Virus record (IMG/VR): IMGVR_UViG_3300027668_000044
Location: 1-37,516 of that record
Direction: 5' to 3' (one strand)
Origin: a virus
Length of the DNA stretch: 37,516 nucleotides
Shown here: positions 5,214 to 35,601 of the stretch, one piece after another
How positions within the stretch are numbered: the first letter of the stretch is position 1
Layout: every line of letters starts with the position of its first letter
Notes under the pieces: model-generated
Told to the model about the DNA's origin: nothing
Seen by the model: only the letters and a program-made list of their open reading frames with translations
Database searches by the model: none
Position numbers and translations under genes: made by a program

Positions 5214-6185
5214 ATGAATTGGTATAATATAAAAAATTTATCTGAATCCTCTACAGAAGTAGTTATTTATGATGAGATAGGAGCTTGGGGTGTAGATTCC
5301 AAATCCTTTATAGAGGAAGTAAAACAAATATCCACAGAGAATATTCTGTTAAGAATAAACTCCCCAGGCGGTTCAGTTATAGATGGTCTATCTATACATG
5401 ACGCAATTAAGCGTATGCCTCAGAACGTAACCGCACAAATTGAAGGCTTGGCAGCTTCTATTGCTTCTATTATAGCACTAGGGGCAGACCAAGTAACTAT
5501 GAGCGAAAATAGCTTATTTATGATTCATAATGTATGGGGTGGAGAAACAGGAGGGGCAAAAGACATGAGGAAGGCTGCTGACTTGATGGACAAGATGGGA
5601 GACAGACTCGTAAATATTTATGTAGGTAAGACAGGTTTAGACGAATCAACTATCCGTAATTGGATGGATGAGGAAACTTGGTTTACCGCAGACGAAGCTT
5701 TAGAGGCAGGGTTTATTAATTTAGTTGAAAAACCTATTGCTTTAGCGGCTAAGTATGATGTTCAAAAACTCAACTATAAAAACAAGAGTTTAGTAGTTGA
5801 TATGTTTAATTCTAATAAAAAAATAAAAAAAATGGAAAACCAAATTGAAGAGTTAAAGAATTTTATCTCTGACCTTTTTAACAAAAAAGAAAGCGTTAAG
5901 GAAGTAAAAATCCTTGACAACGAAGAAGTTATGGCTAAGATTAGTTCATTAGAAGGGTCTATTTTAGATTCTAATAAAAATGTAACTGACCTTACTGAGG
6001 CTTTGGGAGAAAAAGAATCTAATATTGTTGCTTTATCTGATGAGGTGAAGTCTTTAGAAGAGAAATTAGCTAAGTTGAATGGAACTCCTAGTTCTATTGT
6101 ACCTGAAAGCGACCCTAATCCATCAGAGGATAGTGTGGTTGTTAACGCATGGGCAACTGTAGCAGTAGATATATTTAATTCATAA
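5214..6185 (+). CDS. ClpP-like head maturation protease fused to a scaffold domain
   Basis: The 323-residue protein has a ClpP/S49-type serine protease domain (about 1-190): LLRINSPGGSVIDG forms the oxyanion-side loop, GLAASIAS carries the likely nucleophile Ser82, and MIHNVWG carries His105; acidic residues near 138-150 could complete the triad. Residues about 207-300 are a charged coiled coil typical of scaffolds, ending in a Pro/Ser/Glu-rich tail. A protease fused to scaffold just before the capsid gene is the classical head-assembly arrangement. ATG 5214 was chosen; upstream in-frame codons run through the repeat and promoter region. An internal ATG at residue 207 may make scaffold alone. 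Confidence 0.93.
   Translation: MNWYNIKNLSESSTEVVIYDEIGAWGVDSKSFIEEVKQISTENILLRINSPGGSVIDGLSIHDAIKRMPQNVTAQIEGLAASIASIIALGADQVTMSENSLFMIHNVWGGETGGAKDMRKAADLMDKMGDRLVNIYVGKTGLDESTIRNWMDEETWFTADEALEAGFINLVEKPIALAAKYDVQKLNYKNKSLVVDMFNSNKKIKKMENQIEELKNFISDLFNKKESVKEVKILDNEEVMAKISSLEGSILDSNKNVTDLTEALGEKESNIVALSDEVKSLEEKLAKLNGTPSSIVPESDPNPSEDSVVVNAWATVAVDIFNS
5832..6185 (+). CDS. Nested in-frame scaffold protein (internal start)
   Basis: Methionine 207 of the protease-scaffold polypeptide is preceded by an A-only leader, AATAAAAAAATAAAAAAA then ATG, nearly the same as the leader of the capsid gene (AATAAAAAAATAAAACA then ATG). This start would give a 117-residue coiled-coil protein (MENQIEELKNF...) without the protease, like lambda Nu3 inside C. 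The reading frame is the same as the long gene's. The start is visible in the sequence; that it is used is inferred. Confidence 0.6.
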   Translation: MENQIEELKNFISDLFNKKESVKEVKILDNEEVMAKISSLEGSILDSNKNVTDLTEALGEKESNIVALSDEVKSLEEKLAKLNGTPSSIVPESDPNPSEDSVVVNAWATVAVDIFNS

Positions 6186-6210
6186 TAAACAAAAATAAAA
6201 AAATAAAACA

Positions 6211-7185
6211 ATGGCAAATATAATTTCAACACCAATTTCGTGGAGTCAAGAAGATGCTGCAAAGTATTTCTTACAGCCACTATTTATATCAAATAATGAT
6301 TTAACTCATTTTGATGTAATGACAAACATTTCAGGTTCATCTATTTTACTTGATAAATACGCATCTTTAAAAGATGTAACTAAAGTAGCTAATGGTTCAG
6401 GACACGACTGTTTTGTTGCAGACGCTACTGTAGCTGCTAATACTCATGTAACTTTAAGTTTAGTTCGTTTAGAGGTTGAGCACAAGCAAGCTGCACACGC
6501 ATTATTCAATCATATTAAATCTCAATTCATGAGAGAAGGTATTGAAAGAAATGATTTAACTGGAACTATGCTAATGGGTATGATTTCTGAAATCTTAATG
6601 GGAGGAATCATGAGAGACTTTTCTACTATATCATGGTGGGGACAAACTACTTCAGGTGCAGGTACTCAAGATTTAGCTAATGGTATATGGGAAGCTGCAA
6701 ATGGTATTCCTGCTGGTCAACAAGTAGCTTATACAGGTGTTGCTTTGACTGACTTAGCAGCTTTAATGACTGCAAGAACTGCTGAATTAGCTGGTTCTGA
6801 CCAAGTAATGTTTGTATCTCGTTCTTTCGCTGACCAATATAAATCTGAATTAGTAGCTACTACAAGTGGATTAGCTTATACTGACCTACAGTCTGGGATT
6901 AATAACTTACAATACAATGGTATTGAAATGATTGTTAGACCTGACTTTGATGTAAATATTGCTGCTTACGGAGCTTCTTTATCATCTAATGGGCCAACTG
7001 GTACTACTAAAGTAGAGTGTGCTTTTCTTGTAGCTAAAGGTGCTATCGCTATTGGAACTGACTGGGCTATCCAAGATGTTGACATGTGGTATAACAGAGA
7101 TTGTAAAGAAAACAGATTCAGAATGAACTATTCATTTGGATGTGCTTTAAAAGACAACTCTCTTGTAGCAACAATAACTTACTAA
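6211..7185 (+). CDS. Major capsid protein
   Basis: The 324-residue protein follows the protease/scaffold gene by 25 bases, the canonical capsid position. It has an N-terminal arm, a helix-rich region (LEVEHKQAAHALFNHIKSQF, LMGMISEILMGGIMRDF), a central GIWEAANGIPAG segment and a C-terminal beta region with IAIGTDWAIQDVDMWYNRDCKENRFRMNYSFGC, consistent with an HK97-fold shell protein. The third-base pattern and strong A-rich leader fit high expression. No obvious cleaved delta domain is seen, since the scaffold is separate. Fold is inferred from context and length. Confidence 0.88.
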   Translation: MANIISTPISWSQEDAAKYFLQPLFISNNDLTHFDVMTNISGSSILLDKYASLKDVTKVANGSGHDCFVADATVAANTHVTLSLVRLEVEHKQAAHALFNHIKSQFMREGIERNDLTGTMLMGMISEILMGGIMRDFSTISWWGQTTSGAGTQDLANGIWEAANGIPAGQQVAYTGVALTDLAALMTARTAELAGSDQVMFVSRSFADQYKSELVATTSGLAYTDLQSGINNLQYNGIEMIVRPDFDVNIAAYGASLSSNGPTGTTKVECAFLVAKGAIAIGTDWAIQDVDMWYNRDCKENRFRMNYSFGCALKDNSLVATITY

Positions 7186-7870: not shown

Positions 7871-8182
7871 ATGTATAAATTAGACAAAGAGTGGTTCAAA
7901 GAAAATGATAAGGAGATTGTATTATTTGGCAGGCACTCTAAATCAGCAAAATTTTTTCCTAAACTTACTTTCTCTGAAGAGCAGATTGTTGTTGTGGAGG
8001 GAAACCAGGATGTATTAAAGGAGCTTTATGAAATAGGGAAGCCTTATGTTTCTTTACATAAAGGCACTTGTAAACCCAATGAGGATTGCAGTGTAGATAA
8101 AAAGCCTAATAAAAAAATAAAGAAATCCAACAAACATGAGTCAAAAGAACAAGTATTACCAAAAACCAGCGAAGAAAAATAA
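7871..8182 (+). CDS. Small hypothetical head-region protein
   Basis: The 103-residue protein starts MYKLDKEWFKEN; the ATG at 7871 lies 24 bases after the -7 box, and upstream TTG codons fall in the promoter itself. An N-terminal beta/alpha part (EIVLFGRHSKSAKFFPKLTF, VVVEGNQDVLKELYEIGKPYV) is followed by a lysine-rich tail (KPNKKIKKSNK). Its last 47 bases overlap the portal start. It might be a head completion or portal-associated protein; no family is recognised. Confidence 0.7.
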   Translation: MYKLDKEWFKENDKEIVLFGRHSKSAKFFPKLTFSEEQIVVVEGNQDVLKELYEIGKPYVSLHKGTCKPNEDCSVDKKPNKKIKKSNKHESKEQVLPKTSEEK

Positions 8183-9416
8183 GCTTCTTGCTTACGGTTT
8201 TTCAAAAGATTTAGCTCAAGACGCACCTGAAGAAACAAAAAGAATAGATAGATTAAAAAATTCTTGGATTCCCTTTGGTGATGATAATTTATTTCCTCAG
8301 CATTTAAGTGAGTTATCAAGATGTGCGGCTACACACAGGGCAATACTAAACACTAAAACTACATTTACTATGGGTGAAGGGTTACATACCCTTGACGCTA
8401 TATTAGAGGAGTACCTTACTGATGTCAATGCTTCTGGAGAAACAGCGGATGATGTTATAAGAAAGGTTGTTTCTGATTATTGGACTTTCGGTAATGCTTA
8501 TTTAGAGGTTGTTATAGGTAAGGGATTTATAAATCTATACCATCAAGACGCTACAACAGCAAGAATGAGTAAAAAGAATGATAAAGTTCTTTTCCATCCT
8601 GACTGGGCTAATGTTAAGAGGTCAGAAAATAAAATAAAGACAGTTGATTTATATCCTAAATTTAAAAAATCAGAAAAAGGAGTGGAGCGTTCTGTTATTC
8701 ATTTCTCTGATTACGAAAGCACTTACTATTACTATGGTCTGCCAGATTATACTGCAGCTTTAGACCACATAAAAATAGCAAGTCAAATAGGTAAATTCAA
8801 TTTAACAAGATTTAAGAATGGGTTTATGCCTTCAGCTATTATTGAGTTGGGTGCTGATATGTCTGAAGAAGAGGCTCAACTGTTTATCAATGAAGCTAGA
8901 GATAAACTGACTGGAGAAAATAATAATTCTAAAATATTATTTATAGCTAAGAATGGGGATGAGGCTGCCTCTAATGTTAATATTATTAATGACACAAGTG
9001 ATGGTTCTTTTATGGAACTACAAACTATAACTAATGATAATATAATATCATCACATAGATGGAATCCTGCTTTATCAGGAATACAGGTTGCTGGTTCTCT
9101 AGGTAATAACCAACAGATTTTAACTATATACGATATAGTTATGTCAACTGTTATTAAAGAACCTCAACAAATGATTTTAAGGGAACTTAAAAAAATACTT
9201 AAGAAACATGGTGGTTATACTGTTTCTGATTTACATATACTTAATAAACCTCCAGTTACAATGCTTGGAGCTATTAACCCAACAGATTACATCTCTGTTC
9301 AAGAGGGTAGAAGGATATTCCATTTACCAGAATTAGATGAGGCAGAATTAGATAGCTTATTAATAGAAAAAAATAAAATACAAAATGGCACTGATAACAC
9401 CGACACAAGTAGTTGA
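8136..9416 (+). CDS. Portal protein
   Basis: The 426-residue protein begins with a basic arm and then SWIPFGDDNLFPQHLSELSR, AATHRAILNTKTTFTMGEG, typical of the N-terminal region of phage portal proteins. Later segments DYWTFGNAYLEVVIGK, VIHFSDYESTYYYYGLPDYTAALDHIKIASQIGKFNLTRFKNGFMPSAIIEL and the C-terminal helix-rich end fit the portal wing, stem and clip. It would form the dodecameric channel at the head vertex. The start overlaps the preceding gene by 47 bases and its end overlaps the adaptor gene by 32 bases. It lies 3 kb downstream of capsid instead of next to terminase. Confidence 0.85.
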   Translation: MSQKNKYYQKPAKKNKLLAYGFSKDLAQDAPEETKRIDRLKNSWIPFGDDNLFPQHLSELSRCAATHRAILNTKTTFTMGEGLHTLDAILEEYLTDVNASGETADDVIRKVVSDYWTFGNAYLEVVIGKGFINLYHQDATTARMSKKNDKVLFHPDWANVKRSENKIKTVDLYPKFKKSEKGVERSVIHFSDYESTYYYYGLPDYTAALDHIKIASQIGKFNLTRFKNGFMPSAIIELGADMSEEEAQLFINEARDKLTGENNNSKILFIAKNGDEAASNVNIINDTSDGSFMELQTITNDNIISSHRWNPALSGIQVAGSLGNNQQILTIYDIVMSTVIKEPQQMILRELKKILKKHGGYTVSDLHILNKPPVTMLGAINPTDYISVQEGRRIFHLPELDEAELDSLLIEKNKIQNGTDNTDTSS

Positions 9417-21239: not shown

Positions 21240-21427
21240 TGGGGAAAAAAATAAATACTTTTAAAAGATTTGAGAAATTTTTTGGTAGCAAGTCAAACTG
21301 GGAATCAACTATATTAGTAATAATAGTCCTTTTTTGGTTAACACCTATAATGGTAACTTACTTTATATTAAAATTTGGCATAATCATTCCAATAGGTAAC
21401 TTGCTTGGCGGTAAAAAGAAAAAATGA
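21239..21427 (+). CDS. Small membrane protein
   Basis: The 62-residue protein has a basic N-terminus (KKINTFKRFEKFFGSK), a hydrophobic helix (TILVIIVLFWLTPIMVTYFIL) and a second short hydrophobic region before the lysine end. It overlaps the gene before it by one base and the terminase by 4 bases (ATGA), so it belongs to the packaging operon. Function unknown. Confidence 0.65.
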   Translation: MGKKINTFKRFEKFFGSKSNWESTILVIIVLFWLTPIMVTYFILKFGIIIPIGNLLGGKKKK

Positions 21428-22737
21428 AGATAGACTTTACGCCAACAATAAAACAGCATCAGGCTTGGGAATATCTACATGATAAGTCCAGCTCTGAAAT
21501 TTTATTTGGAGGAAGTGCTGGCGGTGGTAAATCATACTTTGGAGCAGCCTGGTTGCTGTATTCGTGTTTGAGATACCCAGGCACAAGGTGGCTTATGGGT
21601 CGTGCTGTATTGAAAACACTTAAAGAGACTACTCTTAACTCATTTTTTAGTGTTTGCTCAGATTGGGGTGTAAAGAAAGGCGAGACCTATAAGTTTAATG
21701 CACAATCCAATGTTATTGAATTTGTGAATGGTAGTCAAATATTACTAAAAGACCTTTACCAGTACCCTGCAGACCCAAATTTTGATTCACTCGGCTCACT
21801 TGAGATTTCTGGAGCTTTCATTGATGAGGTTAATCAATGTACTGAGAAAGCTAAGAATGTTGTAGCCTCAAGGGTTAGATATAAACTTTCTGATTTTGAC
21901 CTTCGGCCAAAAATGCTTATGTCGTGCAATCCAGCTAAGAACTGGGTTTATGATTTCTATAAGCAGTGGAGGGATGATAACCTACCAGAGCATCAGAAAT
22001 TTGTTCAAGCAAAACTTAAAGACAATCCTCACATCTCTGAATACTATGAAGAGCAGTTAAGAAAGCTTGACCCTGTTTCAAGAGAGAGGCTTTTGCATGG
22101 TAATTGGGAATATGATGAGGGTAAAGATAAATTATTTGAATATGAGGCCCTTTTAGACTGTTTTAAGAACTCTGTAGAGGAAAGTAGTGAAAAGTTCCTG
22201 TCTTGTGACGTAGCTTTGATGGGAAGTGATAAAATGGTAATAACTCGCTGGTCTGGGATGACTGTTGAGGAAATAATTACCAGAGATAAAAGTTCAGCTA
22301 ATAGTATAGAGGTTTTAATAAAAGAATTGGCAGATACCCATAATATACCAAGAAAAAACATAATAATTGATTCTGATGGCGTAGGACAGTATCTTTCTCA
22401 TTATATGAAGGGAGTAGTGCCATTTATAAACAATTCCAAAGCTATGAAGGCCGAAAACTACAAAAATTTAAAGAGTCAGTGTTATTACAAGCTTGCCGAA
22501 CAGATTAACGCAGGCAACATACATATAAAATGCAAGAAAATAGATATTAGAAATAAAATAATTGAAGAGCTAGAGGTTGTTAGAAGGAAAAATATTGACT
22601 TAGATGGGAAACTTGCTATACTTTCTAAAAAAGAAGTTAAAGCAGCTATAGGTCGCTCACCTGATTATGCAGATAGTTTGATGATGAGGATGAGGTATTT
22701 ATTTGATGGAGGCAAGAAGATATTGGCATGGGCATAA
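21424..22737 (+). CDS. Terminase large subunit
   Basis: The 437-residue protein has an ATPase domain with Walker A GGSAGGGKS (29-37) and Walker B AFIDEVNQ (about 131-138, Glu135), an aromatic/basic adenine motif region, and a nuclease domain from about 255 on: SCDVALMGSDKMVITRW, IIIDSDGVGQYLSHYM, and PDYADSLMMRMRY near the C-terminus, in which the Asp residues would bind metal. It packages DNA into the prohead with the small subunit. The length is typical of the Terminase_6 family. It overlaps the previous gene by 4 bases. Confidence 0.95.
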   Translation: MKIDFTPTIKQHQAWEYLHDKSSSEILFGGSAGGGKSYFGAAWLLYSCLRYPGTRWLMGRAVLKTLKETTLNSFFSVCSDWGVKKGETYKFNAQSNVIEFVNGSQILLKDLYQYPADPNFDSLGSLEISGAFIDEVNQCTEKAKNVVASRVRYKLSDFDLRPKMLMSCNPAKNWVYDFYKQWRDDNLPEHQKFVQAKLKDNPHISEYYEEQLRKLDPVSRERLLHGNWEYDEGKDKLFEYEALLDCFKNSVEESSEKFLSCDVALMGSDKMVITRWSGMTVEEIITRDKSSANSIEVLIKELADTHNIPRKNIIIDSDGVGQYLSHYMKGVVPFINNSKAMKAENYKNLKSQCYYKLAEQINAGNIHIKCKKIDIRNKIIEELEVVRRKNIDLDGKLAILSKKEVKAAIGRSPDYADSLMMRMRYLFDGGKKILAWA

Positions 22738-35367: not shown

Positions 35368-35601
35368 ATGAAAACATTAATAAAAATATTTTGGAGTCTA
35401 ATAATTGGAGGTAAACTCAAAAAGTCCTCAGAAAAGACTTTTAATAAAAGAATTGAAATTTGCAGAACTAATAAGTGCGGTTCTTATAAAAAACCATTAA
35501 ACATGAAGGGTCTTGAAAAATGTGGTGATTGTGGTTGCTTTCTTAATTTAAAAGCAAGAATTGATGAGTTTTATATAAAGTGCCCTCAAGGATTATGGTA
35601 A
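35368..35601 (+). CDS. Small Cys-containing protein (zinc-ribbon-like)
   Basis: The 77-residue protein has C-RTNKCGSYKK, CGDCGCFLNLKARI and KCPQGLW. This C-x4-C, CGDCGC, CPxGxW pattern is known from small phage and bacterial zinc-ribbon proteins that often occur at the end of tail blocks. Six Cys suggest one metal site. The start has an A-rich leader. Function unknown. Confidence 0.7.
   Translation: MKTLIKIFWSLIIGGKLKKSSEKTFNKRIEICRTNKCGSYKKPLNMKGLEKCGDCGCFLNLKARIDEFYIKCPQGLW

Follow-up and report, generated by a model that had tools for sequence, protein, structure and literature searches.

The locus examined here raises the question of whether a single reading frame in an uncultured virus encodes both a head protease and an assembly scaffold, and how the second of these would be made. 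The gene lies on the plus strand at positions 5214-6185 of a 37,516-nucleotide virus record, which was analyzed over its whole length and is hereafter called the window, and it encodes a protein of 323 amino acids. As the preliminary description of this DNA had reported, an internal ATG lies in frame within the gene as codon 207 (Met207) of a ClpP-like protease, at position 5832. A polypeptide begun at this ATG would extend to the end of the gene (5832-6185, plus strand), with 117 amino acids, a computed mass of 12.8 kDa and a pI of 4.3.

Protease, capsid and the nested reading frame

A head protease domain of the ClpP/crotonase superfamily is present at the N-terminus of the 323-residue protein. 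Residues 39-171 match the Pfam profile PF00574 (CLP_protease; E 3e-31), PHROG families of head maturation proteases also match the protein (best E about 1e-67), and the ClpP fold was recovered for the protease part with Foldseek. Membership in the lambda C family proper (peptidase S49) is not claimed for the window protease because its best Pfam match is to ClpP (PF00574), with no S49 model matching the 323-residue protein at E ≤ 0.01, the threshold used. The Ser82 and His105 motifs of the protease are intact, and the position of the ClpP catalytic Asp (G-[LF]-[VI]-D; 5718-5720) is occupied by Asn169 in the window, as in most relatives, with Asp kept in some of them (e.g., L055).

In the AlphaFold2 model the ClpP fold extends to about residues 172-180, with high pLDDT to about residue 172, and residues 1-180 (5214-5753, plus strand) were assigned to the protease domain. 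The tail that follows is predicted to form three helices (residues 191-223, 236-288 and 312-322; the second is long and the third C-terminal), with disordered stretches between them. The long helix (5919-6077, plus strand) is a probable coiled coil, a region modeled with moderate confidence. The C-terminal helix (6147-6179, plus strand) contains an invariant tryptophan, Trp313, and is a candidate for the capsid-binding end of the putative scaffold. The internal ATG had been placed at the precise point where the coiled coil takes over from the protease fold. It does lie past the fold, but the exact coincidence did not hold, as Met207 sits approximately 30 residues beyond the end of the fold and 16 residues into the predicted helix 191-223.

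Downstream of the protease gene are a short leader (6186-6210, plus strand) and the gene for the major capsid protein (6211-7185, plus strand; 324 amino acids). No family match was found for the capsid gene. Its AlphaFold2 model (pLDDT 68) is most similar to the P4 procapsid (7jw1; Z 15.4) and is also similar to HK97 prohead I (8fqk; Z 13.5), to which its first residue aligns at HK97 residue 86. This model gives the capsid protein an HK97 fold without the N-terminal delta domain. An HK97-fold capsid protein and an adjacent head protease are features that the window shares with HK97-type proheads; however, the scaffold of HK97 is the delta domain of the capsid protein itself, whereas the window protein begins at approximately HK97 residue 86. 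Since the delta domain appears to be missing and no gene intervenes between protease and capsid, leaving no other scaffold candidate in this interval, a separate scaffold would be needed, and the nested product is the candidate. A PHROG search found no scaffold family match for the nested part. The nested product is acidic, helical and coded directly 5' of the capsid gene, like known nested scaffolds.

The order of the head genes is unusual, with the portal protein gene (8136-9416) located 3' of both protease and capsid, and the large terminase gene (21424-22737) some 12 kb beyond the portal, with many small genes between them. On the minus strand, an open reading frame of 168 amino acids with a GTG start (5774-6280) overlaps the scaffold part and is probably a by-product of base composition.

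Context and conservation of the internal start

We scored start codons with a 20-nucleotide position model trained on the starts of the window's other genes, with the capsid gene excluded. The leader of ATG 5832, AATAAAAAAATAAAAAAA, has 16 A residues in 20 nucleotides, and we annotate an A-rich translation initiation region within the coding sequence (5812-5831, plus strand), with CTAATAAAAAAATAAAAAAA 5' of the ATG. This ATG scored 11.2 and ranked first among the 243 in-frame internal ATGs (runners-up, 7.7 and 5.9), which places it level with the best real starts in the window, which reach 11.9. Of 10,212 in-frame coding positions, ATG 5832 alone reached a score of 11.17; chance is a poor explanation of this context. 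In addition, the 15-mer AATAAAAAAATAAAA was found in the nested leader (at 5814) and in the capsid leader (at 6194) and nowhere else in the window. These results uphold two earlier observations, that the leader is nearly the same as that of the capsid gene and that it is very unlike ordinary coding sequence. The second-best internal context in the window (7.7) belongs to ATG 35503, in frame in a 77-residue open reading frame (35368-35601); this ATG may be the true start of that frame, or the gene may be wrongly called.

Accessibility of the region around ATG 5832 is in the 98th percentile within its own gene, and the median for the nested start over 25 homologues is the 91st percentile, values that are partly a consequence of A content and are not independent evidence. 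Initiation in Flavobacterium johnsoniae does without a Shine-Dalgarno (SD) sequence and benefits from A at positions -3, -6, -12 and -13 and from low structure (PMC6847099). ATG 5832 is preceded by A at all four positions, with no SD and low structure, and in this it is like the F. johnsoniae initiation regions, although the rules in that bacterium are those of ordinary gene starts and the window start sits inside coding sequence. The proposal of Bacteroidetes-style A-rich initiation agrees with these four positions, and also with the Flavobacteriaceae-family prophages described below.

Viral contigs were searched three times for homologues, twice with queries lacking the linker, which yielded 61 distinct sequences of 55-100% identity in which the linker was covered. 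The preliminary description had named homologues lacking the A-run or the Met as what would count against an internal start. Met207 was kept in all 61, within a variable linker that contains indels, and every homologue has 11 to 16 A per 20 nucleotides 5' of it. This conservation is not a search artefact because many of the homologues were found with queries that excluded the linker region. Among 25 representatives of less than 90% identity, the three residues preceding the Met (204-206) are freely variable (E/N/L/I/S, N/K/S/I/F/L and K/Q/N, respectively), with indels, and other Met positions beyond residue 151 are exchanged for Leu, Ile, Val and other residues. In 61 of 61 homologues no other internal Met of the gene scores as high as the nested one, a count that, like the others here, overstates independence since the homologues are related to each other. 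The nested Met has a mean score of 4.4, whereas the 677 other internal Mets have a median of -10.3 and do not exceed 2.2. Moreover, 22 of 25 homologues have a nested start that scores above the protease start, and in three (L117, L111 and L129) the protease start scores higher. In 11 of the 25 representatives the Met is preceded by CAA, which puts C at -3 instead of the favoured A, and the nested scores of these are modest, ranging from -2.5 to 3.6.

The linker is rich in Lys and Asn in all homologues, and it had been suggested, as a weak alternative, that the A-run is just a Lys-rich stretch. A plain Lys-rich linker would be expected to show ordinary codon choice; instead, AAG and GAG are avoided upstream of the nested Met. 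In the eight codons 5' of it, 2 of 94 Lys, Glu and Gln codons end in G, versus 450 of 1659 in the rest of these genes, and after thinning to 80% identity the counts are 0 of 40 versus 205 of 788. This depletion was not reproduced by any of 5000 within-gene permutations, in either the full or the 80%-thinned set; at 70% identity, where three sequences are left, the signal is weak (permutation 0.03). Neither this avoidance nor an invariant Met in a variable linker is explained by a Lys-rich stretch, and we consider that suggestion unlikely.

Probable nested starts in wider relatives, and comparison with known phages

The nested plan is shared by proteases of Flavobacteriaceae-family prophages (L177, L259-L263, L264, L265 and L286). 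In L177 and L259-L263, from Mesonia, Zunongwangia and other family members, an invariant MSKPNS[YF]P start follows a variable linker, and its Met is the best-scoring tail Met in five of the six and marginally second in L263 (1.3 vs 1.5). Two Flavobacteriaceae-family genomes that carry distant relatives of the window capsid have the protease directly upstream, with the nested Met present. The nested Met of L265 scores 6.3 and is its best tail Met, and that of L264 scores -2.6 and is second best. A protease-profile search across the Flavobacteriaceae returned mostly open reading frames of housekeeping-ClpP length; the new phage-type gene that was followed, L286, has a best-scoring nested Met (1.7). 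The scaffolds of L264, L265 and L286 have an added conserved stretch after the nested start (KNLKV..DANG.EI.F..L...GETYV...GEL.EIK), which is absent from the window scaffold. Judging by these relatives, the protease-capsid gene pair appears to belong in Bacteroidota; for the window itself, an uncultured virus record, such a host is a putative one. A search of INPHARED with the capsid protein gave one distant match (uncultured and unannotated) and no cultured close relative.

SD sites, rather than A-rich leaders, were found at the corresponding place in more distant proteases. In 82 distinct distant relatives, an SD match of at least 6 bases lies 5' of 13 of 243 ATG or GTG codons in the tail, 5 of the 13 being near copies of one sequence; the protease domain has a single such case among 838 ATG or GTG codons (p 3e-8). 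A strong SD inside the protease coding sequence, just 5' of an internal ATG or GTG, is present in L081, L082, L083, L080 and L198, with more such cases in L195, L210, L233, L170 and the L239/L241/L243/L248/L249 group; M[TN]LE-type scaffold starts follow several of the sites. It is probable that these sites mark nested scaffolds in other phages. Because SD sites precede tail start codons in such distant relatives, nesting would thus seem to reach beyond the phage group of the window, with a start signal that differs by lineage.

Several other relatives were set aside. The nearest named protease relatives examined, Vibrio phage K303 and Lactobacillus phage JCL1032, were uninformative on nesting, with short tails reaching 55 and 60 residues past the domain. 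The protease tails of mEp043 and PhiR47_1 (~480 residues) are apparently fused to a capsid part. L174, from a Bacteroides MAG, has a short tail without a useful internal Met, and the internal MAENQ Met of L205/L217/L225 has a poor A-rich score and is not claimed as a nested start.

A close comparison is lambda C/Nu3, in which a head protease of the ClpP/crotonase fold has an internal scaffold start and lies 5' of the capsid genes; the protease is S49-type, and the host of lambda reads Shine-Dalgarno sequences. The window shares with C/Nu3 the architecture of a head protease, an in-frame 3' scaffold, an internal start and a capsid gene downstream, but differs from it in having a PF00574 CLP_protease and an A-rich, SD-free internal leader. 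The earlier analogy with C/Nu3, of a protease-scaffold fusion together with a free scaffold, is supported by the comparative evidence as far as this architecture is concerned. For lambda, Shaw and Murialdo (1980) are cited in PMC8508860 for an in-frame scaffold in the 3' part of the protease gene, and a single gene for protease and scaffold is known in P2 as well as in lambda (PMC8508860). In Burkholderia phage KS10 (genes 28/29) and Mu-like relatives the scaffold is embedded in frame in the protease gene, and the same embedding is stated for "many other phages" (PMC2628397). An SD-like site (AGGAagccATG) precedes KS10 gene 29, whereas the window start has none, and the two are likened by gene arrangement. 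An in-frame nested scaffold is already known, and its A-rich, SD-free form is new; a literature search, with most subscription papers outside it, found no report of a nested scaffold with such a start, or of one in Bacteroidota phages.

Alternative readings and a proposed mechanism

Might the gene yield the fusion only? The scaffold would then be a C-terminal domain of the protease, which would release it by cutting itself close to the linker in the manner of P2 gpO-type scaffold-proteases, and the A-run would be no more than a flexible Lys/Asn-rich linker in an AT-rich genome. The composition of the linker in all homologues is in keeping with this, as is the one-gene arrangement in P2 and lambda (PMC8508860). 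However, such an explanation, which we consider unlikely, does not account for an invariant Met among varying neighbours, for AAG/GAG avoidance confined to that stretch, or for the SD sites at the equivalent junction in relatives. Less probable still, the internal start may be real and its 117-residue product something other than an assembly scaffold, such as a regulator or adaptor of the protease. Scaffold function was assigned only from position, coiled coil and size, and the nested part is without a scaffold family match; yet an HK97-fold capsid protein without a delta domain, the lack of another candidate in the protease-capsid interval, and an acidic, helical product coded where known nested scaffolds are all speak against a different role. 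Slippage of RNA polymerase or the ribosome on the A-run, giving a frameshifted product, is hardly credible, since A7-T-A8 tracts can promote slippage in general but no other plus-strand frame of at least 60 amino acids crosses the region, and homologues interrupt the A-run differently yet keep the Met.

We consider it highly likely, from comparison of sequences, that this one frame provides both a protease-scaffold fusion and an excess of free 12.8-kDa scaffold made from a conserved internal start. In the mechanism that we propose, initiation at 5214 would produce a 323-residue fusion of ClpP-type head protease and helical scaffold, while independent initiation at ATG 5832, from an A-rich, unstructured leader of the Bacteroidota type, would produce the 117-residue scaffold alone. 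The free scaffold is predicted to be in excess over the protease fusion because the nested start usually has a stronger context than the protease start, a difference that would fit a need for more scaffold than protease. The free scaffold would co-assemble with the HK97-fold capsid protein, the product of the next gene downstream, a few protease copies would enter the prohead via the scaffold part of the fusion, and the protease inside the prohead would degrade the scaffold ahead of DNA packaging.

On a broader scale, the balance of evidence leans towards the nested start being old in ClpP-type head protease genes, with its signal rewritten for each host. In Bacteroidota phages the signal would be A-rich and SD-free, fashioned from a Lys/Asn linker; elsewhere it would be an SD site within the coding sequence, and the strength of the start would set the ratio of protease to scaffold. 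A scaffold of this kind is missed by gene finders and annotators, as a called gene in the same frame encloses it entirely and no SD precedes it. The pattern provides a simple, testable rule for locating scaffolds in Bacteroidota phages that have none annotated. It is also a natural case of an A-rich signal under coding constraint, which helps to tell the requirements of the signal from its mere correlates.
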